NCBI GenBank assembly: GCA_027078745.1
Contig: JALWWO010000019.1
Span: 418,596-465,393, forward strand
Source of the DNA: Chromatiaceae bacterium
GTDB taxonomy: Bacteria; Pseudomonadota; Gammaproteobacteria; Chromatiales; Chromatiaceae
Reading direction: 5' to 3'
Length of the DNA: 46,798 bases
The notes under the pieces were generated by a model. It made no database searches and was not told the origin of the DNA. It saw only the letters and a list, made by a program, of their open reading frames with translations. Position 1 is the first letter of the stretch. Each line of letters starts with the position of its first letter. This document shows, one piece after another, positions 4,872 to 36,152 of the stretch. The position numbers were made by a program, and so were the translations under genes.

Positions 4872-5411
4872 TCAGCCTTTTCCCGCCTGCGCCCTTGCGC
4901 TTACCGCGTCAGGGCGCTGCTGACGCCGCACCTTCTCCAGTTTTTTGCGGATGCGCTGGCGCTTGAGGGCGGAAAGATAATCCACGAAGAGCTTGCCGTC
5001 GAGATGGTCAACCTCATGCTGAATGCAGACGGCGAGCAAACCCTCTGCTTCCAGCTCAAAGGGCTTGCCCGTCCGATCCAAGGCCCGCAGCCGGATGCGC
5101 GCCGCGCGGGTCACCGGCTCTGTGTAGCCCGGTACGGAGAGACAGCCTTCTTCCGTGGTTTCCTCCCCTTCCCGCTCGAGGATTTCCGGATTGATGAGGC
5201 ACAGGGGCTGGCTCCGATCTTTGGAAAGATCGATGACAGCGATGCGCAGGGAAATTCCCACCTGGGTGGCGGCTAATCCGATGCCAGGCGCTTCGTACAT
5301 GGTTTCAAATAGATCGTCGATCAGGGATTGAATGCGGTCGTCCACCCGGGACACGGGCTTCGCGCGATTGCGCAGACGGGAGTCGGGAAAGACCAAAATC
5401 TCTAGGTTCAT
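4872..5411 (-). CDS. def: Peptide deformylase
   Basis: Metal-dependent removal of the N-formyl group from nascent proteins. From the ATG at 5411 the protein is 179 residues and begins [20 protein letters not shown], which matches the family N-terminus; an ATG 90 bases further upstream would add 30 unrelated residues, so I reject it. All three deformylase motifs are intact: [10 protein letters not shown] (43-52), EEGCLSVPG with metal ligand Cys90, and QHEVDHLDG with His132, catalytic Glu133 and His136. A basic tail rich in Lys and Arg (about 145-179) follows the catalytic domain. It is the first gene of the minus-strand block and is divergent from the LysM gene, sharing an intergenic region with two inverted repeats. 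Confidence 0.95.
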
Positions 5412-5472
5412 CGCTTCTTGGGACTGGTGCTGTTCGGGACGGATGCTAAGAATTTGCATGGTACACGGTTGG

Positions 5473-5493
5473 GCATAGCCAAAAAAGCTATGC
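5473..5493. promoter_or_regulatory. Inverted repeat upstream of def
   Basis: Perfect 7-bp inverted repeat GCATAGC / GCTATGC with a 7-base spacer (C followed by six A), between the divergent def and LysM genes and about 60 bp upstream of the chosen def start. No T-run follows it in the orientation needed for a terminator. It could be an operator or an mRNA hairpin in the def leader; the sequence does not decide. Confidence 0.35.
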
Positions 5494-5508
5494 AGATACA
5501 AGCACGAG

Positions 5509-5533
5509 ATGCCTTGCTAGAATAGAAAGGCAT
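5509..5533. promoter_or_regulatory. Second inverted repeat enclosing a TAGAAT hexamer
   Basis: Perfect 7-bp inverted repeat ATGCCTT / AAGGCAT with an 11-base spacer. The spacer contains TAGAAT (5518-5523), a 5-of-6 match to a sigma-70 -10 box for the plus-strand LysM gene. No good -35 box lies 16-18 bp upstream, so the promoter may depend on an activator or may not be real. The symmetry around the -10 box would suit a repressor site. Confidence 0.3.
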
Positions 5534-5612
5534 TTTCCTGTAGGGGGATATGTGGATGAAAACGCTTAACTTCACGCCCGATGCGGCTTGGGCTAGACCT
5601 GCTGGAGCTATC

Positions 5613-6779
5613 ATGCGCTTATTCTTTCTATTCACCACGCTGCTGTTCCTGCTTCCCGCCCGTTCGATATTCGCCCTAGAACTCAATCCCAATCATCCCC
5701 AGACTTATCGGGTTCGCCCTGGGGATACCCTCTGGAGCATCGCCAGCCGATTTCTCAAGGATCCTTGGCGTTGGTCAGAAATCTGGGAGGCAAACCCTGC
5801 TTTGGGGGATCCTGACCTCATCTATCCTGGGGATGTGCTCACCCTCTATTACGAGAACGGACAGCCCCGCGTCGGGCGGGCACCCGGGCAACTGCGCACC
5901 GTGAAGCTTTCCCCTCGGGTGCGGGTCACCCCGCTGCAGAAACCCATTCCCACAATCCCCATCGGAACCATCCATCCCTTTCTGACCCAACCCTATGTGC
6001 TGGAACGAGAAGAGATTCAGGCTGCACCCTATGTGGTGAGTTTTCCCGATCATATGCTCGCTGGTGCGGGGGATCGGGTCTATGTGCGCAAGATCTTGAG
6101 CGATCAGGAGCGCCATTACCATATCGTGCGTCCGGGAGAACCCTATCGAGATCCGGATACCGACCGATTGTTGGGCTATAGAGCGCGATACATCGCTGAC
6201 GCCTTCCTGCAGAATCCCGGAGATCCCGCATCCCTGCGGATCAAGCGCATGGATTTGGAAGTCGCCATCGGGGATCGGATCATCCCTGCCGCTGCCAGCG
6301 AGCCCCTGCAGAACTTCTATCCCCGTCCCGCGCCCCCGGGCCGCCGAGGCAGGATCATCGCTTCCCTCAATTCGCTCTCCCAGATCGGTCGCTATGATGT
6401 GGTGGTGATCAATCTGGGAAAGCGACAGGGTATCGAGGTAGGGCAGGTCTTCAATGTCTACAATGGGGGACAAGTGGTGAAGGACCGCGCTGCTACGGAA
6501 GCAGCTAACTGGGATTGGAAAAACATGCCCTTCTGGTCTCAGGAGTTTTGGTACGACGACTATCGGACGCAGGGTTGGTTGTTCGATGAACCCGATGAAA
6601 ACGAGCCTTTCCCAACCCATATGTGGGCAAAGCCTCGAGCGGAAGACTATATCTTGCCCTACGAACAAGCAGGTGTGTTGATGGTGTTCCGTACTTTCGA
6701 AGACCTGAGCTTCGGCCTGATCCTGCGGGCGAATCGAGCGATCAATCTGTTGGATTCGGTACAATCACCAGAAGCCTGA
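5613..6779 (+). CDS. Exported LysM-domain protein upstream of dprA
   Basis: 388 residues from the ATG at 5613. This start gives a clean signal peptide (MRLFFLFTTLLFLLPARSIFA) and has GGAG five bases upstream. An alternative ATG at 5556 also has a G-rich stretch (AGGGGG) at good distance but would put 19 polar residues before the signal. One LysM repeat follows (YRVRPGDTLWSIASRFL to LIYPGDVLTLYY, about 31-77), expected to bind peptidoglycan. The rest is a beta-rich region without a motif I can name. A LysM protein next to dprA and divergent from def is a common proteobacterial arrangement. It likely acts in the periplasm or at the outer membrane. dprA starts 3 bp after its stop, so the two are cotranscribed. 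Confidence 0.85.
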   Translation: MRLFFLFTTLLFLLPARSIFALELNPNHPQTYRVRPGDTLWSIASRFLKDPWRWSEIWEANPALGDPDLIYPGDVLTLYYENGQPRVGRAPGQLRTVKLSPRVRVTPLQKPIPTIPIGTIHPFLTQPYVLEREEIQAAPYVVSFPDHMLAGAGDRVYVRKILSDQERHYHIVRPGEPYRDPDTDRLLGYRARYIADAFLQNPGDPASLRIKRMDLEVAIGDRIIPAAASEPLQNFYPRPAPPGRRGRIIASLNSLSQIGRYDVVVINLGKRQGIEVGQVFNVYNGGQVVKDRAATEAANWDWKNMPFWSQEFWYDDYRTQGWLFDEPDENEPFPTHMWAKPRAEDYILPYEQAGVLMVFRTFEDLSFGLILRANRAINLLDSVQSPEA

Positions 6780-22795: not shown

Positions 22796-23029
22796 ATGAT
22801 AAAGGATTTTATCGTTATCACTCTTTCAGATATAATCGGCCGAGGGCTGTTTTTTGTCTATGGCGTGATCGTTGCTCGTTCCATACCTGTGGAAGAATTC
22901 GACATCTATTCACTCGCGGTTTCTGTCAGCGTGTGGTTATTTTCTATAAGCAGCATAGGTATTGCCGCGCATGGGATACGCCTCGTAGACCCACTAACTG
23001 GAGCGATCACATCAATTCCTCCGAACTAA
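22796..23029 (+). pseudogene. N-terminal relic of a second polysaccharide flippase
   Basis: A 77-codon frame starting MIKDFIVITLSDIIGRGLFF followed by a segment of the Wzx/RfbX type (GVIVARSIPVEEFDIYSLAV, then ISSIGIAAHGIRLV). Flippases are normally 400-500 residues with 12-14 membrane helices; only the first two are present. The reading then runs into unrelated residues and a stop at 23029, exactly where the complete flippase begins in another frame. I therefore interpret it as what remains of a different flippase gene after a deletion or recombination. Its base composition is more AT-rich than that of the following gene. Confidence 0.7.
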
Positions 23030-24351
23030 AAGCATACCTGCTGCGAGGCGGTGCTTGGGCATTCTTTGGCAAGCTGGCGGCATCGTTCGTCGGCTTGTTG
23101 CTGATAAGCCTGTTGGCCAGAACATTGCCACAGGCAGAGATGGGTTTGTATTTTTTATCATTCAACCTAGCGACCTTCTTTTCGATCCTGGGGCGGGGCG
23201 GGCTGGAAAACACCCTGCTGCGCTATCTTGCCAAAGCCAATGGAGCTAACCAGCCGGAAGAAATGCGCGTCATCTGGCGGAAGGGGTGGGTGCTGGCCGT
23301 GTGTGTGGCATCCGTTGCCGGTTTCTTGGCTGCTATCACGCTGCACAAACTCGGCGAGCCTGTTTTCGGCTCACCCGCGCTGAGTGGCTTAGCATGGCTG
23401 ATAGGTGGCTGGGTCCCCCTTTTGGCCATTCAGGGCGTGGCGGCGGAAATTTTTCGTGGCCTGCAAGAGATTGCCCACTCGGTGTGGTTCGGAGGGCTGA
23501 CTGCCGGAATGCTTACCGTGGCTTTATTGGCGGCAGCGATGGGGCTGAATACAACGCTCGATTTGAGAGCGGTAATACTGCTGATCCTTTGCGCGCTGTC
23601 CTTCAATGCCATTGTGGCATTCCTGGCGCAATACCAAAAAATGAAAGCGCTGCCCGAGGCGGCTCAGGAAAAGACCGGTTATGGAGAATTGCTAGGGCAC
23701 TCCTGGCCGCTCTTGATCAATGCCGTGACGCTGTTCTTGCTTTCTCAATCGGACTTATGGCTGGTAGGTACCTATGCCAGCAAGGAAGATGTCGCGGTGT
23801 ATGGGGCGGCAGCGCGGCTTGTCATGCTGACCGCTATCTCACTCAGCATCGTCAACATGGTGATACCACCGCTCATCGCGCGCATGCATGCGAAGAACGA
23901 TCTGGCCAGATTGGAAAGATTATTGCGCAGCATAGCGACCCTTGCCGCCATCCCGTCGTTGATTATACTGACCATGTTCATGCTCTTTGCGGCACCCATG
24001 ATGGAGCTGATTTACGGGGAACATTATCGATCTGGAGCCGTCGTTCTGATGATTTTGTGTGCCGGGCAAATCGCCAATGTACTGACTGGATCATGCGGTT
24101 ATGTTCTGATTATGACGGGGCATCGAAAAACGATCATGGCGATAACGATTGCGAGTGCTGTGTTTGCGCTATCGACAGGGTTATATTTCGTGCAAGTATT
24201 TGGCGTGATCGGATTGGCAACGGCCTATGCAATTGCGGCGGTAGTCCAGCAAGTCGGCATGTGGATCTATGCACATCATTATTCAGGTGTGTGGACTCAT
24301 GCTGGATTTACTTATCTATTTGGATTGGTTAGAACGATGCTGATGAAATGA
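22933..24351 (+). CDS. Wzx-like polysaccharide flippase, start codon uncertain
   Basis: Up to 472 residues, with about 12-14 hydrophobic segments and the family features LLARTLPQAEMGLYFLSFN near the N-terminus and SQSDLWLVGTYASKEDVAVYGAA in the middle. It would flip undecaprenyl-linked repeat units to the periplasm. The family-like sequence begins only near ELKAYLLRGGAWAFFGK (about 23026). The only start upstream in this frame is a GTG at 22933 without a ribosome site, inside the relic flippase. From there to 23026 there is no ATG, GTG or TTG. So the native start seems lost, and translation may depend on the upstream frame or be poor. It overlaps the sulfotransferase by 4 bp. Confidence 0.8.
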   Translation: MVIFYKQHRYCRAWDTPRRPTNWSDHINSSELKAYLLRGGAWAFFGKLAASFVGLLLISLLARTLPQAEMGLYFLSFNLATFFSILGRGGLENTLLRYLAKANGANQPEEMRVIWRKGWVLAVCVASVAGFLAAITLHKLGEPVFGSPALSGLAWLIGGWVPLLAIQGVAAEIFRGLQEIAHSVWFGGLTAGMLTVALLAAAMGLNTTLDLRAVILLILCALSFNAIVAFLAQYQKMKALPEAAQEKTGYGELLGHSWPLLINAVTLFLLSQSDLWLVGTYASKEDVAVYGAAARLVMLTAISLSIVNMVIPPLIARMHAKNDLARLERLLRSIATLAAIPSLIILTMFMLFAAPMMELIYGEHYRSGAVVLMILCAGQIANVLTGSCGYVLIMTGHRKTIMAITIASAVFALSTGLYFVQVFGVIGLATAYAIAAVVQQVGMWIYAHHYSGVWTHAGFTYLFGLVRTMLMK

Positions 24352-25256
24352 AAGATTCAATGAGGATGAGAGATCCAATGAGAGTGCCCGACATTTACAT
24401 CATAGGCGCACAAAAGTCCGGTACTACCACCTTGTATGACTGGTTGGCGCAGCATCCACAGATTTATAGCCATCCTCTGGCGAAAGATTATCCCTATTTC
24501 AGTGATGATTGCATCCATAACGATGGCGCGAGAATCTTCTATTCATTTTCGAAGGATGCGCCTAGTAATCTTATGGTGTTAGGAGGGGACGCGAACGCCA
24601 TGTATGCCTCCTTGGGACCCCAGAGAATGAAACAGACGATGCCAAATGCTCGTTTGATCGCCATTCTGAGACATCCGGTACAACGGGCATATTCCGCTTA
24701 CTGTCATGCAGTTGAGCGTTTGATGGAAGTGCGTCCCCTAGAGCAAGCCATTCGTGATGAACTCCAAGGCATTAGGTATGATCCCTTGGACGCGTTGCGA
24801 CGGGATTATCTTGCACATGGCCAATATGCTCATCAACTGAAGAGGATCTATAAGTTTTTTAGTTCTCATCAGGTTAAGGTGGTGATTTTTGAGGAGTTTA
24901 AAGAGGAGCCTTTGGATGTTCTTCGAGATGTCTATCGGTTTATCGGTGTTTCAGATGATTTTGTTCCTGATCTAGAAATTAGAAATCAGACGATGGGTGG
25001 GTTTCGCTCGGCCATGCTTACAAAAATTGTTCATGGACGCCCCTCATCCAGTCTAGTGCGTAAAATGGGTCGATCTGTAATCCCTTTTGCGGCTCGTCAA
25101 TATATTCGTAGAGGGATTAATAAAATCAATCATGTGGAGCGTTCTAAGCCTGTGTTCTCACAGTGTGTCAAAGAAATAATGATGCATTTTTATGAGGAGT
25201 CTATTGTTGAACTTGAGGTTTTGTTGGAGCGCAGGATCGCATTATGGCGATGCTGA
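24348..25256 (+). CDS. PAPS-dependent sulfotransferase
   Basis: 302 residues. The 5'-phosphosulfate loop GAQKSGTTTLYDWL (about 20-33) and the 3'-phosphate motif LRHPVQRAYSAYCH (about 107-120) identify a PAPS-dependent carbohydrate sulfotransferase of the heparan/chondroitin type. Four in-frame ATGs lie at 24348, 24360, 24366 and 24378. The first overlaps the flippase stop (ATGA), while the last is nearest the conserved core MRVPDIYIIG. GATTCAATGAGG and GATCCAATGAGAG suggest an imperfect 18-bp in-frame duplication here. Its acceptor is probably the sugar repeat unit made by this locus. It is one of two unlike sulfotransferases in the locus. Confidence 0.87.
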   Translation: MKDSMRMRDPMRVPDIYIIGAQKSGTTTLYDWLAQHPQIYSHPLAKDYPYFSDDCIHNDGARIFYSFSKDAPSNLMVLGGDANAMYASLGPQRMKQTMPNARLIAILRHPVQRAYSAYCHAVERLMEVRPLEQAIRDELQGIRYDPLDALRRDYLAHGQYAHQLKRIYKFFSSHQVKVVIFEEFKEEPLDVLRDVYRFIGVSDDFVPDLEIRNQTMGGFRSAMLTKIVHGRPSSSLVRKMGRSVIPFAARQYIRRGINKINHVERSKPVFSQCVKEIMMHFYEESIVELEVLLERRIALWRC

Positions 25257-25543
25257 TTGAAATGTATGTCTATATAAAATCAACAATTCCCGCTGAAATA
25301 CAAATCAATACATTGATTACAAAGGAATTTAGACTGAAATTTGTACAGAAGGCGGATGAATTCCCAATCTATAATCAAAAATAATTTACAGGTGACCGGG
25401 AGTTTCTGATATAAAATCATGATGTTTTTATTATATTGATGGTTTTGATGGGTTTTGAGTGTAGATGGGCGAAAGGTGCCTGATGAAATCGTTATGACGA
25501 GACAGGTCTTGATTATCATGGTCCTAGTTAGTATGGGATTGGT
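25257..25543. other. AT-rich gap before the polymerase gene
   Basis: 287 bases, very AT-rich, with no gene I can support on either strand. It may hold an internal promoter for the genes that follow. No clear -35/-10 pair or terminator was identified. Confidence 0.4.
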
Positions 25544-26986
25544 ATGAGAATTTTCTGTGTTTTCTTGGTTTTGTCAGTCTCTGGGGTTATAGGACTGGTT
25601 GTTGGTTTCATGGGTGAGGGCGATAAATCTATATGGCAGATAATAATCGTTTTTCTTATTCTGTTGTCCGGGGCGTTAAGTCGTTTGGCCCGCATTTTTG
25701 GTGATGTTAGGGTTATTTTTGCTATTGTGCTTTTGCTTTACGGATTGATTGGTGGGTGGAATTTTTTTGATCGAGGGGCTTTTGTTGACTGGAAAAACGA
25801 AGAATACTTTATTATATTTTTTAGTGGATTCTTCTTGGGAGCGATCATTGGCGATATGTTCTATAGCGGCATGAAAACCCTGTCTAAAATCGGTTTTGAG
25901 GCAGCCGATGTGATGGTTGAAAAAGAAAAACTTTTTGGTTTTTGGATTCGTAGTAAATTAGCCGATTCAAAAAGTTGCGTCCCAGATTGTCATCAACCGG
26001 TCCGGATCCCTCAGAGGATGACTCTGATTTCTTTATGGATCGTAGTTATTGGATTAGTTGCATTTCTTTTTGATTTTTTGTTAATAGGTAATGTGCCAAT
26101 ATTTAACCCTGAGTCTCGGTACAATAGCCTGCCTTTTTTTAGATTGATATATCTTTTTGGGGCTTCAGTGTCGTGTTTGTGGCTCATTTCTGCTTGGCAT
26201 TGGGGATGGAAGGTGAATGCGTCTATTGTTTTTATATTTTTGTATATGGTTTTAGGGGTGGTGAGTTTATATAGAACATTGCCTATTTTTATGTTGGGTG
26301 TGTTGGGATTGGCTTACCTCGAAAGAGAAAAATTATCTAATGTAAAGCGTAGCGGTATTTCAAAAGTTGCTCGTTATTTTGGCTTGCTGATTATTTTTCT
26401 CACGATTAATATGGTTGCTTTGTATAGAGATATGAATCAGTATGGTGATTTTTATACTCTCTATAATTTGGTCGTGGTAAAAGAAGGTCTTCCTGAATAT
26501 GCCTTTCCATTTTACCCGATTCTTCATAATGTTCGGGAGGGGCCTCAAATATTTCAGCAAATAAGGGATTCCGATTTTGTGTTTGGATATGGGCGTTATG
26601 TGGCCGAATCCTACTCTACTGTGTTGCCTGGTTCTCAAAGGAGCTTTGGTGATATTGTAAATGAAATAATTAATGCGCCAACCAGAAACACAAAAACACC
26701 ATCGGTGGTCGGGTCGTCCTATATTGTGGGTGGCTGGCTTGGTGTTGTGCTTGTTTCTATGTTTCTTGGGTTTTTGATCAGTATTGTTTGCAGATGGCGC
26801 AAGGGTAAATTGTTGTACGGAGGTTTCTTCTGTTATTATCTTTCTTCTTGGTTCTTAATTTCAATACATACGGGTGGGATTTTCCAACCGTCGTTTCTGA
26901 TAGTGTTTATTTTGTTGATTATTATGGGCCTTTATGGACTTTTTTTGACAAGCGGCGTGTCGCGTTATGGGATAGATCACAGTTAG
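25544..26986 (+). CDS. Wzy-like O-antigen/oligosaccharide repeat-unit polymerase
   Basis: 480 residues with about 11-12 strongly hydrophobic segments spread over the whole length and a large periplasmic loop around 300-390 (GDFYTLYNLVVVKEGLPEYA; SFGDIVNEIINAPTRNTKTP). This organisation, together with position beside a flippase, indicates a repeat-unit polymerase. Wzy proteins share little sequence, so the call rests on topology and context. The gene is visibly AT-rich (22 G/C in 60 at 25621), unlike the flanking chromosome, which suggests horizontal acquisition. It is intact, whereas the second polymerase/ligase downstream is broken. Confidence 0.7.
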   Translation: MRIFCVFLVLSVSGVIGLVVGFMGEGDKSIWQIIIVFLILLSGALSRLARIFGDVRVIFAIVLLLYGLIGGWNFFDRGAFVDWKNEEYFIIFFSGFFLGAIIGDMFYSGMKTLSKIGFEAADVMVEKEKLFGFWIRSKLADSKSCVPDCHQPVRIPQRMTLISLWIVVIGLVAFLFDFLLIGNVPIFNPESRYNSLPFFRLIYLFGASVSCLWLISAWHWGWKVNASIVFIFLYMVLGVVSLYRTLPIFMLGVLGLAYLEREKLSNVKRSGISKVARYFGLLIIFLTINMVALYRDMNQYGDFYTLYNLVVVKEGLPEYAFPFYPILHNVREGPQIFQQIRDSDFVFGYGRYVAESYSTVLPGSQRSFGDIVNEIINAPTRNTKTPSVVGSSYIVGGWLGVVLVSMFLGFLISIVCRWRKGKLLYGGFFCYYLSSWFLISIHTGGIFQPSFLIVFILLIIMGLYGLFLTSGVSRYGIDHS

Positions 26987-27040
26987 AAAATATACGGCAA
27001 TGACCAATCTCAGTTGCGTCCTCTCAGAATTTAAAAGAAT

Positions 27041-27299
27041 ATGAAAATCATCCTCAGCGGAACTAACCCGGCTTCCCGCCTTGGTGGGATTGGCTATGCG
27101 GTGGGATTGGCTATGCCCTGCCTGGCTATTTTCGGGTGTTGGAGGCAGCGGGCATCCTTTAATCCCTACCTATCATCCACTCAAGTCAGGCGGCAGGTAG
27201 CGACCTTGGCTGGCGGGTTTTCCCCTGTTGATTCGTGGAATTCGTGCAGCGCGCTGGAAAAGCGATTCAATCATAGTCTTCTATGCTCATCTAGGTAAA
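27041..27299 (+). pseudogene. Decayed N-terminal fragment of a GT4-type glycosyltransferase
   Basis: The first 19 codons (MKIILSGTNPASRLGGIGYA) match the start of the intact glycosyltransferase at 28553 (VILTGTDPSSKKGGIGFA). A perfect 17-bp tandem duplication then shifts the frame. Other frames continue the similarity: MPGYFRVLEAAG-like bases near 27117, IPTYHPLKSGGR near 27160 and IRGIRAARWKSDSIIVFYAHLG near 27231-27296. A further small deletion near 27150 and a TAG at about 27197, likely from TGG, also interrupt it. Similarity stops after YAHLG, where the polymerase/ligase begins. At least three lesions and the missing C-terminus make this a true relic. Confidence 0.8.
27083..27116. repeat. 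Perfect 17-bp tandem duplication
   Basis: GGTGGGATTGGCTATGC occurs twice in direct contact (27083-27099 and 27100-27116). Seventeen is not a multiple of three, so it shifts the frame of the relic glycosyltransferase. The intact homologue at 28553 has the corresponding segment once. Confidence 0.95.
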
Positions 27300-27320
27300 A
27301 GTACTCTCTGGCTAATTACT

Positions 27321-28575
27321 ATGTTACCACTTCTATTCTTTGCAGATGTGCTGTATGGTGCTATGCAGCTATATGGATTGAATACACCAGTCAGCCCAGG
27401 GATCGCGCTTCGTGGTCTTGTGCTCGTTGCTTCCATCTATTTCCTATTGATGAGAACCCAATTCATAGATCGCAGATTACTGATCTGGATTGTGACCATA
27501 ATTATATCCTCATTGCCAGGATTGGTAATTGGTATTTTCCAAGGGCAGGATCTGTTTTTTGAATTTACTGCATATGCTAAAATTTTATACATGCCATTAG
27601 TTGCTGGGCTATTATCTATTCTAATCAAGCGCTATTCAGTTGATCCGGATAAGGTCATTCGATTCATTGAATATACCGCTTATGTACTAGGTATCGCACT
27701 TTTAATTTCTCAAGCCATTGGAATAGAGAAAAAAACCTATGGGGATTATGCATTTGGAAGCACTGGGGTCTTCCATGCGCAGAACGATCTAACGCTTGCC
27801 TTCGGTCTTGGGTTATTGGCAAGTACCTACCGATTAGTCATCTTTCGATTTTCTTGGTTTCGACTTAGTTTGCTAATATTAAGTATATATGCCTGCTTAC
27901 AAATCGGAACCCGTGCCTCACTTGCTGTAGTGATCATTGCAGGGATCAGCGCCATAGCCTACCTATTTTGGGGAAGTTCTACTAGAAGCTACATATTAAG
28001 ATGGATTATAGGTCTGTCAATTATTGTTGTTGCAGTCTCAATGGTGACCTATTTTTTCTCTAAACAGATGGAATTCGATTATCAGAAAAAGAAATTTGAG
28101 ACGATTGCACAAGGTGAGTTTCCACGGATGAGTTTAGCAGATGCTGGATTTCAACATCTCGCGGAAAGATTTTTGATCTATGATATTTTTGGAGAGGGTG
28201 TAGATACATTCCAGCGCGGTGTAGCAGAGAATTTTAATAATATTACAAATTTCGATCGAAGACTTGTAGAAGTGGATTGGATCGATTTATTTGGTTATTA
28301 TGGGATTATATTTGTTCTTATTTTCCATTTTTTTGTTCTTTCCATATTTTTAAACTCTCTATTTAGATTTTTTAAACTCTCTATTTAGATTTATCCTTTA
28401 CCATGATCCAATATTTGGGTTAATTTCAATCACAACGCTGGTGTATTTAGGACATTCTGCGGTTGCAGGACACGCATTAGTTACCCCAATACCAGGTACT
28501 GCAATCGCAGCTTATTTTTCTATTTTCTTCTCTCTAAAGAAGAATTACTCTTATGCATTCAAAGTTATCCGATAA
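27321..28575 (+). pseudogene. O-antigen polymerase/ligase-like membrane protein, truncated by a 22-bp duplication
   Basis: Membrane protein of the WaaL/O-antigen ligase-like superfamily, with about ten hydrophobic segments and a periplasmic loop (about 255-325). As written the frame ends at 28388 after FRFFKLSI (355 residues from the ATG at 27321). A 22-bp tandem duplication at 28347-28390 causes this. With one copy removed the frame continues FRFILYHDPIFGLIS, then GHSAVAGHALVTPIPGTAI and on to a stop at 28575, about 410 residues. The continuation looks like a normal C-terminus and would overlap the GT4 start by 23 bp, as in a compact operon. The exact start is uncertain because the relic glycosyltransferase runs into it in frame. 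The 355-residue form may retain partial function. Confidence 0.8.
28347..28390. repeat. Perfect 22-bp tandem duplication
   Basis: Two contacting 22-bp copies (28347-28368, 28369-28390) of a unit that begins TTTTTAAACTCTC and ends TATTTAGAT. It introduces a +1 frame change and the TAG at 28386-28388 into the polymerase/ligase gene. Confidence 0.95.
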
Positions 28576-29656
28576 AATTTATGTAATCCTCACGGGCACC
28601 GATCCAAGTTCTAAAAAAGGAGGAATCGGGTTTGCCCTGCCTGGCTATCTCGCCGCCTTGGATACAGCACAAATTTCCTATAAGTCCATTCCTACCTATC
28701 ATCCCACTGCCGTCGGAGGAAAATGGTGGTGGTGGCTACGAGCATTGCCTAAGATCGGAGGGCATATCCTCACCAATCGTTTTTCCGGTCGATCGGTTAT
28801 CCTGTACAGTCATCCTGGTGCTGGTATCTCTTTGGCAAGGGAGGGAATTCTACTAGCCCTTTCCCGTCTACTAGGTGCCAAGGCTGTGATGCAGTTACAT
28901 ACACTTACAATAGATCGATATCTCCGTCATCCTTGGCAGCGATTTTTCTTTCAATTGGCAATTGCTCCCGCATCCGCCTTAGGGGTACTCACCCTCTGGT
29001 GGCAGAAACGATTGTTAGGCGCAGGGATTCAGAAGAAAATGTTTGTGATTCCCAATCCGCTGCCACCGGATTGGGAACAGCGGGCGTTTTCAAAGAAAGT
29101 CCTTGTAAGGCCAAAGGATTTTCCACTTACAGTATTAACACTAGCTCGGATCGTACCCGGGAAGGGGGTGGATCTCGTCGTAGAAGCCTTTGCATTCTTG
29201 CCGAAATCTGTGCGGTTGATTGTGGCAGGAGATGGAGATCAGCTAAATGCAATTAAGCATCGGGCAAGTGAGCTAGGGATTTTTTCTAGGATAGCATTTG
29301 CAGGTTGGGTAGTGGATGAGGAAAAACAAAGGCTGTTCGATCAGGCAGATCTATTCTGTTTACCCAGCGATTACGATTCTTTTGGAATGATCTATTTAGA
29401 AGCGATGGCGAACGGATTACCTGTCATTGCGTTAGACGGGGGGCCTATTTCCGATGTGGTGCCCCATGGTCGCTGTGGCCTACTGATCAAACAGAAAGAT
29501 CCCAAGCAATTAGCGGAAGCGATCCGTTCGCTGATGGCACCTGATCTGCGACAGCGCATGGGCAAATCTGGACAGCGTTGGGTCATAGACCAGTTCAGCG
29601 CTCGAAAGGTCGGTCAGTCGATTCGATCGATGCTAGAAGAGATCACCAACCCATGA
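28553..29656 (+). CDS. GT4-family glycosyltransferase
   Basis: 367 residues, GT-B fold. The N-terminal domain starts VILTGTDPSSKKGGIGFALP, and the C-terminal nucleotide-sugar domain carries LTLARIVPGKGVDLVVEAF, VAGDGDQ and the E-x7-E motif in SFGMIYLEAMANGLPVIALD, as in retaining GT4 enzymes. It adds a sugar to the lipid-linked repeat unit on the cytoplasmic side; donor and linkage cannot be read. The start lies inside the ancestral C-terminus of the polymerase/ligase gene. The stop overlaps the next start (ATGA). A decayed relative of this gene lies 1.5 kb upstream. Confidence 0.9.
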   Translation: MHSKLSDKIYVILTGTDPSSKKGGIGFALPGYLAALDTAQISYKSIPTYHPTAVGGKWWWWLRALPKIGGHILTNRFSGRSVILYSHPGAGISLAREGILLALSRLLGAKAVMQLHTLTIDRYLRHPWQRFFFQLAIAPASALGVLTLWWQKRLLGAGIQKKMFVIPNPLPPDWEQRAFSKKVLVRPKDFPLTVLTLARIVPGKGVDLVVEAFAFLPKSVRLIVAGDGDQLNAIKHRASELGIFSRIAFAGWVVDEEKQRLFDQADLFCLPSDYDSFGMIYLEAMANGLPVIALDGGPISDVVPHGRCGLLIKQKDPKQLAEAIRSLMAPDLRQRMGKSGQRWVIDQFSARKVGQSIRSMLEEITNP

Positions 29657-30693
29657 GATCCCCTCATCTTATCTTAACCGTAGATTATGAAGTCTTTGGC
29701 AATGGACTGGGTTGCATTTCCCATTGTGTCCTCGATCCGGCTGAACGCATTATGCGTATCGCAGAAGACTTTTCTGCACCAATTACCTTTTTTGTAGATA
29801 CAACGGAATTCATGGCGATGGAGAATGGACTCAGGGAAGAGCGACCAGGCATTCAGATCATGCAAGCCGTTAGCCGTGGACATGATGCGCAACTTCATAT
29901 CCATCCCCAATGGGCCGATGCGACCTATGACCGGAAGACCGCTACTTGGAAAGTGGATGAAAAACGCTGGCGCATCGGCGATCTTCCATGGGATCAGGTC
30001 CATTCCCTGATTCAAGAGGGAAAGAATTGGCTGGAAACCAAAGTTTCTTCAGCAGGTTTTCTCTGTATTGCTTTCCGAGCTGGCGGTTGGTGCATCCAAC
30101 CTGCTAAGACTGTCTTGAACGCTTTACAGGACTCTGGTTTTAAGATCGATTCCACAGTGGCACCGGGATTCTGGAATGGATCGAGGCTGGAATGGAACGA
30201 TTTTCGCCAAGTGCCTAGGCTACCTTTCTGGCCGGTTCAAGAGGATGTTTGCAAAGCGGAACCCGTTGGAATTCTCGAAGTGCCGATTGCAACGGGAAGA
30301 ATTGATCGCATTCGCCATTTCCGAGCTTGGAGAGAATCCAGAAAAATACAGGGGGGTTTTGCGCCAAACTGTAGGGGTTCTTACCAAATTGCAGATGATC
30401 GCTTATTCGAGCGTATCCGAGGAAAGGGATCCAAGTTAATGCGATTGGGTCAAGTAATGTTAGACCTCTCTACCATGCCGGCAGATATACTCATCGAGGT
30501 TACACAACAATGGATCAATAGCCATGAAGGGGTTTCAGAAATACCCTTGCCTATCGTAGCTATTGCACATACTAAGAATTTTACCGAAGCTTCGGAAAAT
30601 GCACTCCGGGTTTATCTGGATTGGGTGAAACGGTCGGGGTTGAGATTTTCAACCTTTCAGGAATGGCTAGCGATGTATGATGAGCCAAGATAA
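29653..30693 (+). CDS. Polysaccharide deacetylase-like protein (NodB/CE4-type fold)
   Basis: 346 residues from the ATG at 29653, in a 4-bp overlap with the glycosyltransferase. The start LILTVDYEVFG (Asp11) matches the catalytic aspartate motif of CE4 deacetylases. His82 and His84 in QLHIHPQW sit where the metal-binding histidines are expected. FRAGGWCIQP (about 138-147) matches the third family motif. No signal peptide or membrane segment is visible, so it probably acts in the cytoplasm, on a nucleotide sugar or lipid-linked sugar, rather than on exported polymer. The substrate is not known. It overlaps the next sulfotransferase gene by 17 bp. Confidence 0.8.
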   Translation: MRSPHLILTVDYEVFGNGLGCISHCVLDPAERIMRIAEDFSAPITFFVDTTEFMAMENGLREERPGIQIMQAVSRGHDAQLHIHPQWADATYDRKTATWKVDEKRWRIGDLPWDQVHSLIQEGKNWLETKVSSAGFLCIAFRAGGWCIQPAKTVLNALQDSGFKIDSTVAPGFWNGSRLEWNDFRQVPRLPFWPVQEDVCKAEPVGILEVPIATGRIDRIRHFRAWRESRKIQGGFAPNCRGSYQIADDRLFERIRGKGSKLMRLGQVMLDLSTMPADILIEVTQQWINSHEGVSEIPLPIVAIAHTKNFTEASENALRVYLDWVKRSGLRFSTFQEWLAMYDEPR

Positions 30694-31573
30694 ACCGCCT
30701 ATCCGCCTGCTCTATATCATGGGCACGGCTCGCAGCGGTTCCACCATTTTAGAAATCCTTTTAGCGCAGACTAAGGATGCCTTTGGTGCGGGGGAACTCA
30801 GCTATTTAGTACAGGACGGGCTAATTGCACATAAGGATTGTTCCTGCGGTACATCCTTTCAGAAATGTCCAGTATGGGGAAGGATTCAGGAAGTCTTAGG
30901 GATTCCTAAAACCCTTTACGAGGATTGGGAAAAATTGCAAAGGTCCGTTGATTGGCACCCTGGTTTTTTCCGCCAGTGCTTTGGTTTGTTGGGTAGTAAG
31001 GAGCGAGAACGCTATACTAAGTATAATCTGGCCTTGCTACAGGCAATTCGTGAAGTCACCGAAGCAGCTATTATTGTGGATTCCTCCAAATATGCTGGTC
31101 GTGCCCTAGCGCTGGGCCGTATGGAGGGAATTGATTTATGGGTACTCTGCCTGACCCGAGATCCAGAAGGGTTGATGGCTTCTTTTCAGAAACCAAATGA
31201 GGATGAGCAACTGCCTAAGCGTCCATTGGCAGTTCTTTTCTATTATATGGTTACATTATTTTCTTTACGGATGGCTAGTTTTTTATTAGATAAACAGCAG
31301 ATTTATCTGCTTCGCTATGAAGACTTAGTTGCCGATCCGAGAATTGTTCTGAAGTCCATAGGACGCTGGGCTAAAATTGATTTATCGAAGGCAGAGTTTC
31401 ACTTAAAAGAACAGTCCGCATTCTCAGTAGGGCACTTGATTACCGCAAATCGTTTGCGGAAGCAGGGTGCGATTCGTTTTGATCCTATTATGAACCGAAA
31501 AAGATCAAAGGAATTTAGTGCTAGATTGATTGTGTTCTTGATGAAGATTTGGCGATGGCTACTTAGATTCTAA
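30677..31573 (+). CDS. Second sulfotransferase, of a different subfamily
   Basis: 298 residues; starts at 30677 or the adjacent ATG at 30680. The PAPS-binding loop is IMGTARSGSTILEILLA (about 14-30). IIVDSSKYAGRALAL and LCLTRDPEGLMAS (about 157-169) follow the family pattern for the 3'-phosphate site. Cysteines in CSCGTSFQKCPVW (about 54-66) are typical of this bacterial subfamily and not found in the sulfotransferase at 24348. It overlaps the deacetylase-like gene by 17 bp. It probably sulfates a different position or sugar than the other enzyme. Confidence 0.84.
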   Translation: MMSQDKPPIRLLYIMGTARSGSTILEILLAQTKDAFGAGELSYLVQDGLIAHKDCSCGTSFQKCPVWGRIQEVLGIPKTLYEDWEKLQRSVDWHPGFFRQCFGLLGSKERERYTKYNLALLQAIREVTEAAIIVDSSKYAGRALALGRMEGIDLWVLCLTRDPEGLMASFQKPNEDEQLPKRPLAVLFYYMVTLFSLRMASFLLDKQQIYLLRYEDLVADPRIVLKSIGRWAKIDLSKAEFHLKEQSAFSVGHLITANRLRKQGAIRFDPIMNRKRSKEFSARLIVFLMKIWRWLLRF

Positions 31574-31706: not shown

Positions 31707-32405
31707 GTGAAAAATCTGATCAAGCAGTGGGTTAAACAATATAGGCTTACTGCTCGTGCAAAGAGACGAGCAATATTCCGCAACTATTTTCCTGTGGATG
31801 CACATACAAAAATTCTGGATCTTGGTTCGGAAGACGGCTCTTCGATCTATTTTTTGCTGGATGGACTCTCGTATAACCCAAAAAATATTTACATTGCAGA
31901 TATAGATCGAGACTTGATTTCTGCCGGCGCGGTCAGATATGGATTTACTCCGGTCTATCTCAAAGAGGATAAAGCTCTGCCGTTCGGTGATCGGTTCTTT
32001 GATATTGTGTATTGTTCTAGTGTTATAGAGCATGTTACTGTTCCGAAAGATGAAGTTTACAAGATCCTTTCTGGAAATAGGTTTTCTCTGTTATCAAGTT
32101 CTCATCAAGAGGCTTTCGCAAATGAGTTAGCAAGGGTGGGAAAGGGATACTTTGTACAAACACCAAACAAATACTTCATTGTTGAGTCGCATACATGGCT
32201 GCCGTTCTTCGGATTTATCCCACGGAGATTACAGGTGCCTCTAATCAAATGGACTAACCGTTTCTGGGTCAAGAAGACAGCTCCAGATTTTCATCTTCTT
32301 TCGAGAAGCGAATTTCAAAAGCTATTTCCGGAATCCCTTATCATTCCGGAAAAATCCATGGGGATGGTAAAATCTTGGATGGCTATTAGAAAAATTAACC
32401 AATAA
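31707..32405 (+). CDS. Class I SAM-dependent methyltransferase
   Basis: 232 residues from a GTG at 31707, with GAGG at suitable distance; 133 bp separate it from the sulfotransferase. Motif I is KILDLGSEDGSSIYFL, a slightly unusual form with Glu-Asp in place of the common G-x-G. The acidic motif II (YIADIDRD) and FFDIVYCSSVIEHV are clear. No membrane segment. It likely methylates a sugar or the chain end. Its stop overlaps the next ATG by one base (TAATG), indicating coupling. Confidence 0.78.
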   Translation: MKNLIKQWVKQYRLTARAKRRAIFRNYFPVDAHTKILDLGSEDGSSIYFLLDGLSYNPKNIYIADIDRDLISAGAVRYGFTPVYLKEDKALPFGDRFFDIVYCSSVIEHVTVPKDEVYKILSGNRFSLLSSSHQEAFANELARVGKGYFVQTPNKYFIVESHTWLPFFGFIPRRLQVPLIKWTNRFWVKKTAPDFHLLSRSEFQKLFPESLIIPEKSMGMVKSWMAIRKINQ

Positions 32406-33574
32406 TGCCAACCTATGATCCCTATGATCTCTGGTCTTCTCCTTGGGGCGTAGCCGCACGCCGCCGCTATTATGAAGGTTCTTTCTCCGGTAAAGTAGGT
32501 GCCGTTGCCATCGGGCTAGCGGATTGGCTTTTTCCTCAATTCAGCCGCTGGGCGCTGAACGGTAAACCTCGAACTTACCCTATCGTTGTGGCGCAGGAAT
32601 GCCTGCGAGCAAGGATTCAAGGCACACAGGATCCAGATTCACGCACAAAGGTGCTACAGGCGCTCCAAGATCTGGCTTGGCAGCGGGAGGACGAAGTTTG
32701 GGGTTGGGGGCTGGGCTTCCCTTGGATGTCTAAAAATGGTCTGTATGGACCGGAAATTCCCTTTGTTACCCATACACCTTATGTCATGGAAGCGCTGCTC
32801 GTCCTGTCCGAATGGCCGGAACTCTGCGATCCGGCGATGCGCCTATTCCACGGAACTTGGGGATTCCTAGCATCCCTCCAAATCATGCAGGAAGGGCAGG
32901 ATGATCTGGCACTTTCCTATGCACCCGTGGCAGAACCGCGCATCGTAGTCAACGCAAACAGCTACGCGGCCTTTGCCTATGCCCTACATGCGATCTACGG
33001 CAAGGAAGCACGGCGGAAGGAAGCCGAGCACAGAGCAGAGCGGCTAGCCCGTTGGGTAGTTCACCAGCAAGCAAGCAATGGAGCCTGGTTCTATTATGCG
33101 GATCGGGAGCCAGGTAACTTCATCGACTGCTTCCATTCCTGCTTTGTGGTGAAGAATCTGAGAAAGGTAAAGCAATTGCTTCCCAGCCTGACCGATTTGG
33201 TGGAACCGGCCATCCATCAGGGATGGCAATTCCTTCAGAACGCATTCTTCGATGGGCAGGCAAGGTTGTGCCGTCGATTTGCAGCGCGTGCCCATCGGGA
33301 CCCTTTCTGCTGGGATCTGTACGACCAAGCAGAATTTCTTGGACTGTTAGTGGATTTCGGGGAACTGGATCGGGCAAAGCTATTTGCATCTCAGGTGGAG
33401 GCCCGATTCCGCAGGAATGGGGATTGGTACTGCAAGATCGATCTGCTGGGAAGGCGCTGGGGCAAGCATTTCCTGCGCTGGGGCATCGTACCCTTTTGGT
33501 ACCAGCGCGCCCGGCTGGATGCCCAGATTCGCGGAGATGAGAAAATAGAAATCGGCAACCAGAGAATCTCCTAG
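32405..33574 (+). CDS. Unknown protein, probably an alpha/alpha-toroid fold
   Basis: 389 residues, no signal peptide. Aromatic-rich helices repeat at regular spacing: YPIVVAQECLRARIQ, WGWGLGFPW, THTPYVMEALLVLSEW, NANSYAAFAYALHAIYG, ASNGAWFYYAD, FIDCFHSCFVVKNLR. The pattern resembles alpha/alpha-barrel proteins such as GH88/GH127-like hydrolases, epimerases and terpenoid cyclase-fold enzymes, but I cannot name a family or catalytic residues. It shares one base with the methyltransferase before it and ends immediately before the asnB ATG, so it is embedded in a coupled operon for surface polysaccharide. A sugar-modifying or sugar-cleaving role is inferred only from fold and context. Confidence 0.65.
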   Translation: MPTYDPYDLWSSPWGVAARRRYYEGSFSGKVGAVAIGLADWLFPQFSRWALNGKPRTYPIVVAQECLRARIQGTQDPDSRTKVLQALQDLAWQREDEVWGWGLGFPWMSKNGLYGPEIPFVTHTPYVMEALLVLSEWPELCDPAMRLFHGTWGFLASLQIMQEGQDDLALSYAPVAEPRIVVNANSYAAFAYALHAIYGKEARRKEAEHRAERLARWVVHQQASNGAWFYYADREPGNFIDCFHSCFVVKNLRKVKQLLPSLTDLVEPAIHQGWQFLQNAFFDGQARLCRRFAARAHRDPFCWDLYDQAEFLGLLVDFGELDRAKLFASQVEARFRRNGDWYCKIDLLGRRWGKHFLRWGIVPFWYQRARLDAQIRGDEKIEIGNQRIS

Positions 33575-35416
33575 ATGTGCGGCATCCTAGGTTCCATCGA
33601 TCGAACCCTCCAGCCTGCATTGCTTGCATCGTTGCACCATCGAGGGCCGGATGGTCACGATTTGAAAGCAATACAAGTAGCTGGCCGCAAGGTCTGGCTT
33701 GGTCATACTCGTTTGGCCATTTTAGATCTCTCCCCCGCAGGTCATCAGCCTATGCAGAGCCGAGATGGGCGCTGGTGGGTGAGCTTCAACGGTGAGCTGT
33801 ACAATCATTTCGATTTGCGCCGATCGCTGTCAGGTCCCTTTCGCGGCCATTCGGATACGGAAACTTTGGTGGAGTTGCTGGCCGCTCAGGGGATGGAAAG
33901 TACCCTGGCTCAACTCAACGGCATGTTTGCATTCGCCGCCTTGGATTGCCGAGCAGGGCAGCTCTATCTCGCGCGAGATCCCTTTGGCATCAAGCCGCTC
34001 TATTATGCTCGGGAAGGCAGAAGTCTGATCTTTGCTTCGGAAGTCCGGGTGCTTCGGCTTCTCGGTTTAGGCAATCAGATCAGCGATGCAGGATTACGCC
34101 AGTTCTTAAGCCTCCGCTATGTGCCCTCGCCCGCTACTCTCTGGGCGGGTATTCAGCGACTGCCGCCCGGTCAGATACTTCGAGTAGATTTGGAAAGCGG
34201 CGGTCAGGAATCGCGGCGCTATATCGCGCCGGTACGGGAGCGCTTTCAAGGCAGTTTTGAGGAAGCGGTTGGGATCTATCGGGAACGCTTGGGCGCAGCA
34301 ATCGCACGGCAATTGCTTTCCGATGTGCCGGTGGGGGTGCTGCTTTCCGGCGGGGTGGATTCCGCGTTGGTGGCAGCGATGGCCCGAGATGCCGGCGCAG
34401 AACCGCCCTGTTTTACCGTGGGATTTGGACAGGAACATGCTGAGTGTGAAATCGAAGACGCCGCCCATACCGCGCGGGTGCTCGGACTCCCCTTCCATTC
34501 GGTTCAGGTAACGCCGGAAGGCTTGCGGGAAGCCTTGCCGGCAATCGTCCGCGCAGTGGAGGAACCGCTCGGCACGACCTCTATCTTGCCCATGTGGTAT
34601 CTAGTAGCTCGTGCCCGAGCATCGGTTACGGTGGTACTGACCGGTCAAGGTACGGATGAACCCTGGGGTGGGTATTTTCGGTATCAGGTGGGTTTGTTGA
34701 GCCGGGCATTGCCTTTTCCCTGGCTGTTTCAGCCCGCCGCTTGGCTCGCCCGCTTTCTGCCTGGATTGCCCGATGCTGCCGAGCGAGGCTTGCGCACCTT
34801 GGCTCAATCGGACGCTGCCAAACAAATCTTAGCCGCAGCCGCTCTATTTTCTCCTTCGGAAAGGTGCTGGTTGCTGGGCGATGCAGAAGACGGTGGGGCG
34901 GAAGCGCAGATCCGTGCTTGGCTGCGATGGGTTGCCCAAGCCGGCACCCTCTCCCCCGTGGAAAGCATGATGCGGTTGGATGCCCGCATGAATCTCGCCG
35001 ATGATCTGCTGCTCTATGGCGATAAGATCGCCATGGCGCATTCCTTGGAAGCGCGGGTGCCCATGCTGGATTTGGATCTAGTCCAGTTCGTGGAATCCCT
35101 GCCCATCGAATATCGCATTCGCTGGCGGCAAGGCAAGGTACTGCACAAGCGCATGGCGGAAGGCTATCTGCCTAGGGAAATCGTGCATCGTCCGAAAAAA
35201 GGGTTTCAGGTACCCTTCGGCGCTTGGTCGCGCACTCGTTGGAAACCTTGGGTTGAACAGCACCTGCTGGAAGGTCTGGAAGATATTTTAGAACGGCGAG
35301 GGGTTGAACGCCTTTGGCGGCAGCATAGTAAGGCTCGCCCAGATCGCAGCCGCCAGATCTTTTCCCTTTTGATGCTCGCGCTCTGGTATCAGGATCAAAG
35401 CCATGCAAACGGCTAA
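33575..35416 (+). CDS. asnB: Asparagine synthase (glutamine-hydrolysing) family protein
   Basis: 613 residues. The glutaminase domain starts MCGILGSID with catalytic Cys2 and has LHHRGPDGHD, WVSFNGELYNH and ARDPFGIKPLYY. The synthetase domain contains the pyrophosphate loop GVLLSGGVDSALVAA and later VLTGQGTDEPWGGY and FQVPFGAW. All residues expected for ammonia transfer and aspartyl/carboxyl adenylation are present. In polysaccharide loci such proteins often amidate uronic acids, which would fit the uronate-forming dehydrogenase at the start of the locus. Free asparagine synthesis cannot be excluded. Start abuts the stop before it; the stop overlaps wecG by 14 bp. Confidence 0.9.
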   Translation: MCGILGSIDRTLQPALLASLHHRGPDGHDLKAIQVAGRKVWLGHTRLAILDLSPAGHQPMQSRDGRWWVSFNGELYNHFDLRRSLSGPFRGHSDTETLVELLAAQGMESTLAQLNGMFAFAALDCRAGQLYLARDPFGIKPLYYAREGRSLIFASEVRVLRLLGLGNQISDAGLRQFLSLRYVPSPATLWAGIQRLPPGQILRVDLESGGQESRRYIAPVRERFQGSFEEAVGIYRERLGAAIARQLLSDVPVGVLLSGGVDSALVAAMARDAGAEPPCFTVGFGQEHAECEIEDAAHTARVLGLPFHSVQVTPEGLREALPAIVRAVEEPLGTTSILPMWYLVARARASVTVVLTGQGTDEPWGGYFRYQVGLLSRALPFPWLFQPAAWLARFLPGLPDAAERGLRTLAQSDAAKQILAAAALFSPSERCWLLGDAEDGGAEAQIRAWLRWVAQAGTLSPVESMMRLDARMNLADDLLLYGDKIAMAHSLEARVPMLDLDLVQFVESLPIEYRIRWRQGKVLHKRMAEGYLPREIVHRPKKGFQVPFGAWSRTRWKPWVEQHLLEGLEDILERRGVERLWRQHSKARPDRSRQIFSLLMLALWYQDQSHANG

Positions 35417-36152
35417 TCCCCCCCGCATCCGATTTATGGATGTGGACATGGATCCTTGGACCATGGAACAGACCTTGGCGGAAATCGCCCGCCGTATGGA
35501 TGCGGGTATCTTCGTGCAACATGTGGTGGTCAATGTGGCCAAGCTGGTGAATATGCGAAGGAATCCTGATCTGCGGGAAGCGGTTTCGCGCTGTGATCTT
35601 ATCAACATCGACGGCATGGGCGTGGTTTGGGGGGCGCGCCTTCTGGGGCATCCAGTGCCCGAGCGGGTGGCAGGCATCGACCTGTTCTTCCGCTTGCTGC
35701 AACTGGCCATCGCGCGAAATGAAGGGGTGTTCTTGCTCGGCGCGCGGGAGACGGTAATACGTCAGGCCGTGAACAATCTCCAAAAACAATATCCTCAATT
35801 GTGCATCGCTGGCTACCATCATGGCTATTTCTGGGAAGATGAGGAAGCCGTCGTGGAAAAGATCCGGCAATCCGACGCTTCCATGCTGTTCGTGGGGATT
35901 AGTTCTCCGAAAAAAGAGCAGTTTATCCACCGCTGGCGGGATCGCTTGGGGGTGAAATTCGCCATGGGGGTGGGCGGCACCTTTGACATTGTGGCGGGAA
36001 AAACCCGCCGTGCGCCGGAATGGATGCAGAAGGCTGGCTTAGAGTGGTTCTATCGGGTGCTTCAAGAACCTGGCAGGATGTGGAAGCGTTATCTGACAAC
36101 CAATAGTCAATTTCTTTGGCTATTGATGCGGGAATACTGGTCAATGCGTTGA
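35403..36152 (+). CDS. WecG/TagA/CpsF family (GT26) glycosyltransferase
   Basis: 249 residues of the GT26 family, which transfers an N-acetylmannosamine-type sugar or uronate to a lipid-linked acceptor. Signatures are HVVVNVAKLVNMRRNPDLRE, CDLINIDGMGVVWGARLLG, GARETVIRQAVNNLQ and GVGGTFDIVAGKTRRAPEWM. The C-terminal WFYRVLQEPGRMWKRYL is the basic membrane-association region. The pairing with a WecC-type dehydrogenase suggests ManNAcA as donor. The stop at 36150-36152 is produced by a 9-bp tandem duplication; with one copy the protein would be three residues longer (ending MRWNH). Confidence 0.9.
   Translation: MQTANPPRIRFMDVDMDPWTMEQTLAEIARRMDAGIFVQHVVVNVAKLVNMRRNPDLREAVSRCDLINIDGMGVVWGARLLGHPVPERVAGIDLFFRLLQLAIARNEGVFLLGARETVIRQAVNNLQKQYPQLCIAGYHHGYFWEDEEAVVEKIRQSDASMLFVGISSPKKEQFIHRWRDRLGVKFAMGVGGTFDIVAGKTRRAPEWMQKAGLEWFYRVLQEPGRMWKRYLTTNSQFLWLLMREYWSMR

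Follow-up and report, generated by a model that had tools for sequence, protein, structure and literature searches.

The surface-polysaccharide gene cluster within the window (the whole stretch of 46,798 nucleotides of Chromatiaceae bacterium DNA analysed here) is probably a hybrid, in which a newly arrived polymerase gene, wzy2, made an older one, wzyA, dispensable. The older gene would now be decaying, with a 22-bp tandem duplication as a recent lesion. As the evidence stands, this is mostly ordinary gene decay. Feature positions are collected in Table 1.

Table 1. Features of the polysaccharide cluster, in window coordinates. Percentages are identities to the Sedimenticola operon (L044) described in the text.
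Feature	Position	Strand	Basis or remark
Wzx-type flippase	22933-24351	+	no L044 match
First sulfotransferase (PF13469)	24348-25256	+	no L044 match
wzy2, intact second polymerase-type gene	25544-26986	+	PF01901, 31.7 bits (cut-off 24.2)
GT4-type glycosyltransferase remnant (about codons 1-89), fused to wzyA	27041-27296	+	tblastn, DNA alignment
17-bp unit in two perfect tandem copies, within the remnant	27083-27116	+	sequence
wzyA body (broken polymerase/ligase-type gene)	27296-28388	+	PF13425; homology to L044 polymerase
wzyA duplication, copy 1	28347-28368	+	perfect 22-bp unit
wzyA duplication, copy 2	28369-28390	+	perfect 22-bp unit; ORF frame gains TAG 28386-28388
wzyA C-terminal part, other frame	28369-28575	+	holds GH motif invariant among aligned relatives
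GT4 glycosyltransferase, intact	28553-29656	+	L044 ortholog, 53%
Rest of operon shared with L044	29653-36152	+	same gene order
Next shared gene (start approximate)	29653-30693	+	L044, 51%
Sulfotransferase (PF13469)	30677-31573	+	L044, 52%
Methyltransferase-like gene (label by eye)	31707-32405	+	no L044 match
389-aa protein	32405-33574	+	L044, 63%, at L044 9323-10537
Asparagine synthase-type	33575-35416	+	L044, 61%
WecG/TagA-type	35403-36152	+	L044, 69%

The two 22-bp copies in wzyA are identical and abut each other, and two extra bases also match. Because 22 is not a multiple of three, the duplication moves the reading frame, and the open reading frame (ORF) terminates six codons past the first copy, leaving a product of 355 residues. 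Two touching copies, with a TAG in the second, had already been reported in a preliminary description of this DNA, and both are found in the sequence. Across the 2.18-Mb genome the unit has two exact matches on the forward strand and none on the reverse, and a backwards control has none. Perfect tandem units of 12-60 bp were absent from six dinucleotide-Markov sequences, each of window length, two of which held one perfect tandem unit of 10-11 bp. The 22-bp tandem repeat is more than a chance occurrence. The repeat also contains TTTAAAC, a classical -1 slippery heptamer; it was rejected as a frameshift signal since the tail frame requires a +1 move.

The tail frame can be read from 28354 as far as a stop codon that ends at 28575, and it overlaps the next gene, which begins at 28553, by 23 bp. 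The 349 codons from the ATG at 27321 to copy 1, together with the 61 tail codons counted after the tail-frame reading of copy 2, give a read-through protein of 410 residues; this length, the stop and the overlap agree with the preliminary description. When the restored protein was compared with the O-antigen ligase/polymerase families, as that description had proposed, it matched PF13425 (O-antigen ligase-like membrane protein; curated cut-off 31 bits) with 60.2 bits, compared with 53.9 for the wzyA ORF. Counted from the ATG at 27321, the ORF scores 53.5, the body to copy 1 52.8, the read-through 60.2 and a version with the tail reversed 53.8 bits, i.e. the true tail adds 7.4 bits to the body alone and the reversed tail 1.0. 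A second, weak PF13425 match of the ORF (E 0.0013, genome scan) ends at profile position 408 of 462; the C-terminal part of the profile is not in one frame with the body, and its remainder lies in another frame. Membership of PF13425 does not separate polymerases from ligases, and wzyA is best described from this match as polymerase/ligase-type. Searches with wzyA gave no match in NCBIfam, one weak match in PHROGs (E 0.019) and none in the PDB by sequence at E 1, and tblastn of body and tail against plasmids gave none. Elsewhere in the genome, two other genes score above the PF04932 cut-off.

An intact ortholog of wzyA, encoding 423 amino acids, lies at 4965-6236 of JALVNE010000137.1 (L044), from a metagenome-assembled genome titled Sedimenticola sp.; this sequence is identical to a stretch of G944, a genome from the window's own GTDB family. 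The polymerase gene of L044 overlaps its downstream glycosyltransferase gene by 4 bp, and a deacetylase-like gene (labelled by eye), a sulfotransferase, a gene of the 389-aa type and an asparagine synthase follow in that order. The asparagine synthase and WecG/TagA-type matches in Table 1 were taken from 20 kb of the L044 contig. No Pfam match was obtained for the 389-aa protein of the window at E 0.1. The body of wzyA is 48.7% identical to the L044 polymerase and the tail 48.2%. In alignments with the L044 protein the score is 156 for the tail frame, 25 and 21 for the other two frames, and 54 for the best of 500 shuffles; a chance origin of the tail homology was rejected on these values. Judged by this homology, the out-of-frame tail is the true C-terminus of wzyA, and the truncation removes a C-terminal membrane part including a conserved GH motif. 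The earlier claim that the duplication truncates a polymerase/ligase gene is thus borne out by the PF13425 match together with a homologous tail in another frame. Apart from the duplication, neither body nor tail contains a frameshift or stop. The equal divergence of body and tail, and the lack of any additional stop or frameshift, make it probable that the break is young relative to the split from L044. The recent age proposed earlier for the duplication is supported, indirectly, by this divergence and by the identity of the copies.

Other relatives agree with this view of the C-terminus. PF13425 was matched at E 1e-6 or better in 5 of 398 genomes of the phylum, the window's own included. Two of the four other loci (L040-L043) were found through C-terminal parts of the profile, so this sample leans towards presence of the tail. 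Among the invariant columns of an alignment of L040-L042 with the read-through protein are S372, G376 and H377, all in the tail; the GH motif is thus invariant in these four sequences, and L043, outside the alignment, shows it by eye. A scan of genome contigs based on the alignment returned three loci, namely L044 and two from Mesonia (L045 and L046), which are 22 and 19% identical to the L044 protein and have similar ends; an earlier contig scan with the single wzyA protein yielded 79 stretches and no relative. All seven relatives read (L040-L046, the weak matches L005, L016, L017 and L049 being left out) extend past the truncation point with the GH motif. Homologues that end naturally at FKLSI, which the preliminary description had named as a reason to regard the restored C-terminus as fortuitous, can be rejected: the intact L044 protein has 423 residues, and all seven relatives run on.

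Close orthologs of wzyA are scarce, L044 being the one found within the genomes searched. Among 146 genomes of the family, PF13425 occurs in one, the window's own (G944 apparently lay outside that draw). The wzyA protein is matched in 2 of 142 relatives, the own genome and one other at E 4.6e-4, and in 3 of 369 genomes of the class, again including the own, with E values of 0.003 and 0.009 for the others. At the DNA level, the 2.1 kb around the duplication site were found in 1 of 38 genomes, the own, and in no second one. The N-terminal part of the downstream glycosyltransferase is present in three of 210 family genomes, namely the own genome, G944 (54%) and G937 (24%, E 1e-6).

The duplication is not the only damage to wzyA. 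Its front is fused to a glycosyltransferase remnant. The frame of this remnant shifts twice, at the 17-bp duplication and before about 27162, and the remnant contains a TAG at 27198-27200. In tblastn the remnant appears as pieces in three frames that cover about residues 8-89 of the window glycosyltransferase, with best E values, for a search space of the 414-base stretch only, of 4e-11 (L044 glycosyltransferase) and 3e-8 (window glycosyltransferase). A DNA alignment with the intact downstream glycosyltransferase gene scores 40, compared with 25 for the best of 200 shuffles. Glycosyltransferase homology stops, and polymerase homology starts, at about 27296 (DNA) to 27306 (protein); on the L044 gene, the start of the polymerase homology is at codon 6 (DNA) to 8 (protein). 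Because the end of one homology meets the start of the other, the fusion seems to have cost wzyA its own start and the first five to seven codons. The listed TTG start at 27228 sits in foreign sequence, the codons before about 27296 resembling a glycosyltransferase and not a polymerase. The first in-frame ATG past the junction, at 27321, corresponds to a position inside residues 8-32 of the L044 protein, its first hydrophobic segment. The fusion frame has no stop from 27201 until the TAG that ends at 28388, and translation from an internal start could still occur.

Upstream of the remnant, the cluster contains an intact second polymerase-type gene, wzy2, which in addition to the match in Table 1 scores 22.6 bits against TIGR04370, below the cut-off of 40. 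It has no blastp match to wzyA at E 1. In tblastn at E 1e-3 against the 20 kb surrounding the L044 operon, neither wzy2 nor the flippase nor the first sulfotransferase gave a match. Within the family, wzy2 is found in one of 210 genomes, its own, and in 0 of the 209 others. The GC content of wzy2 is 38.7% and that of wzyA 37.7%, compared with 58.9% for 400 kb sampled from the contig; in 1-kb windows over 24000-29000 it ranges from 37 to 46%, with the minimum over the two polymerase-type genes. The gap at 25256-25544 shows no remnant recognisable by eye. The first sulfotransferase gene opens with an imperfect in-frame repeat of 18 bp (24348-24382), right at its start codon. Two genes of the PF13469 sulfotransferase family in one polysaccharide cluster suggest, from family assignment, that the polymer is sulfated.

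These features can be arranged in a plausible history. Illegitimate recombination would have joined an incoming segment with flippase, sulfotransferase and wzy2, whose last gene, for a glycosyltransferase, breaks off after about codon 89, to an old operon at the very start of wzyA. The old operon would have consisted of wzyA, a glycosyltransferase, a deacetylase-like gene, a sulfotransferase and further genes. Once two polymerases were present, wzyA may have become dispensable, the function of wzy2 being presumed from its family only. Slippage during replication would then have produced the tandem copies of 17 and 22 bp, which, together with other lesions, would have accumulated in the decaying genes. 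The junction between segment and old operon is suggested by the homology breakpoints and the comparison with L044; the direction and order of events, the functional replacement and the loss of wzyA activity are what we infer.

A different view is that the duplication is an assembly or consensus error, for example from mixed strains at a variable locus, and that the true gene is single-copy. We regard this as rather unlikely. The genome is in 24 contigs, and the two duplications of the window, 1.26 kb apart, both frame-shifting and both in gene remains, exceed the sampled rate, at which about 0.04 further duplications would be expected within 1.26 kb on either side (a post hoc estimate). However, perfect tandem duplications occur elsewhere in the genome. 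In 400 kb of the same contig nine were found with units of 10-200 bp, six of them with units of at least 15 bp, and four of these six units (16, 19, 20 and 34 bp) are not multiples of three. When these four were located from ORFs and a Pfam scan of ten ORFs, three lay outside recognised Pfam domains: in the DAGK/L-PSP intergenic region, beside a uroporphyrinogen decarboxylase gene, and between a citrate synthase gene and an Lcl_C domain, the last within a frame that stays open. As the frame-shifting duplications are mostly outside domains, duplication errors are not scattered through genes in the 400-kb sample. Furthermore, the remnant carries lesions other than a duplication, namely a further frame change, the TAG and the fusion. 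Most of the tandem duplications in this genome sit at places where they can cause little damage; the two of the window stand out, being inside genes. The fourth of the frame-shifting duplications in the sample, with a perfect 16-bp unit (C18:264337-264369, in L033), overlaps the final codons of a PepSY-type gene, whose end it may have changed.

It is unlikely, in our judgement, that the duplication is a reversible switch, gained and lost by slippage to turn wzyA off and on. The copies are perfect and of frame-shifting length; the tail carries no other lesion, and its divergence does not exceed that of the body. A gene long redundant should have collected further stops or frameshifts, which body and tail lack, so either its loss is of very recent date or it stayed in use up to that point; a gene in use until recently would fit a switch. 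In addition, spontaneous and reversible sequence duplication is described for pneumococcal capsule operons of serotypes 3, 8, 19F and 37 in the account of PMC4243769. But wzyA also has a defect at its 5' end, next to it lies a remnant with several lesions, another duplication among them, the cluster has a second polymerase-type gene, and at 28347-28390 there are two copies only, no longer repeat tract being found. A switch is less likely in view of the damaged front and of the second polymerase-type gene. The reversible polymerase switch proposed in the preliminary description is therefore not supported. Its picture of a normal compact operon after removal of one copy is not supported either: the tail does overlap the next gene, but the duplication is not the sole defect, given the 5' fusion and wzy2.

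A variant that we find very doubtful is a two-polymerase cluster, in which the duplication would toggle wzyA with wzy2 active throughout; the population would then alternate between two linkages or two chain types of a sulfated polysaccharide. A role for such alternation, e.g. under phage attack or in host association, seems just as doubtful. Finally, it is highly improbable that the tail is dispensable and that the remaining 355 residues form a working enzyme: the first, long region of the PF13425 match is undamaged, but all seven relatives read keep the tail, its GH motif is invariant in the four-sequence alignment, and an AlphaFold2 model of the L044 polymerase (mean pLDDT 50.3) places two helices, at low confidence, beyond the cut point.

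Under the favoured reading of a hybrid cluster with a decaying wzyA, the locus seems to show replacement of a polysaccharide polymerase near its beginning. Except for the fused first codons and one short duplication, wzyA is whole in sequence, and an intact ortholog and operon are available for comparison, which makes it a useful example of recombination in surface-sugar clusters. Precedents exist for the mechanism as well as for the outcome. In Salmonella groups B1 and D1, as described in PMC3715488, a new wzy was gained and the original wzy of the cluster lost its function and decayed. A second intact polymerase-type gene beside a broken old one resembles that case, and wzy2 may have taken over the function here. 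According to the same account (PMC3715488) the new Salmonella wzy lies at a distant locus and decay proceeded by serial deletions, whereas wzy2 shares a cluster with wzyA, in which a tandem duplication is the lesion to be seen.

Reversible loss of a polymerase has also been described. In S. Typhimurium, wzy is reversibly excised, which was proposed to aid recovery after phage attack (PMC12074656). An O-antigen polymerase gene is lost there as well, but the account describes excision of a whole locus between the direct repeats attL and attR, whereas the window shows an internal duplication of 22 bp (PMC12074656). Capsule phase variation by sequence duplication is known from pneumococcus (Waite et al., 2001, 2003, as cited in PMC4243769 and PMC4022640). 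A frame-shifting perfect tandem duplication in a surface-polysaccharide gene, the mark of phase variation of this kind, is what we found. As in the pneumococcal cases summarised in these sources, a duplication would turn off a polysaccharide gene and could revert (PMC4243769, PMC4022640). If switching were shown, duplication-driven capsule switching might extend beyond pneumococcus. In pneumococcus, however, reversibility is reported, whereas the duplication in wzyA is known from one assembled sequence and is accompanied by further lesions (PMC4243769, PMC4022640).
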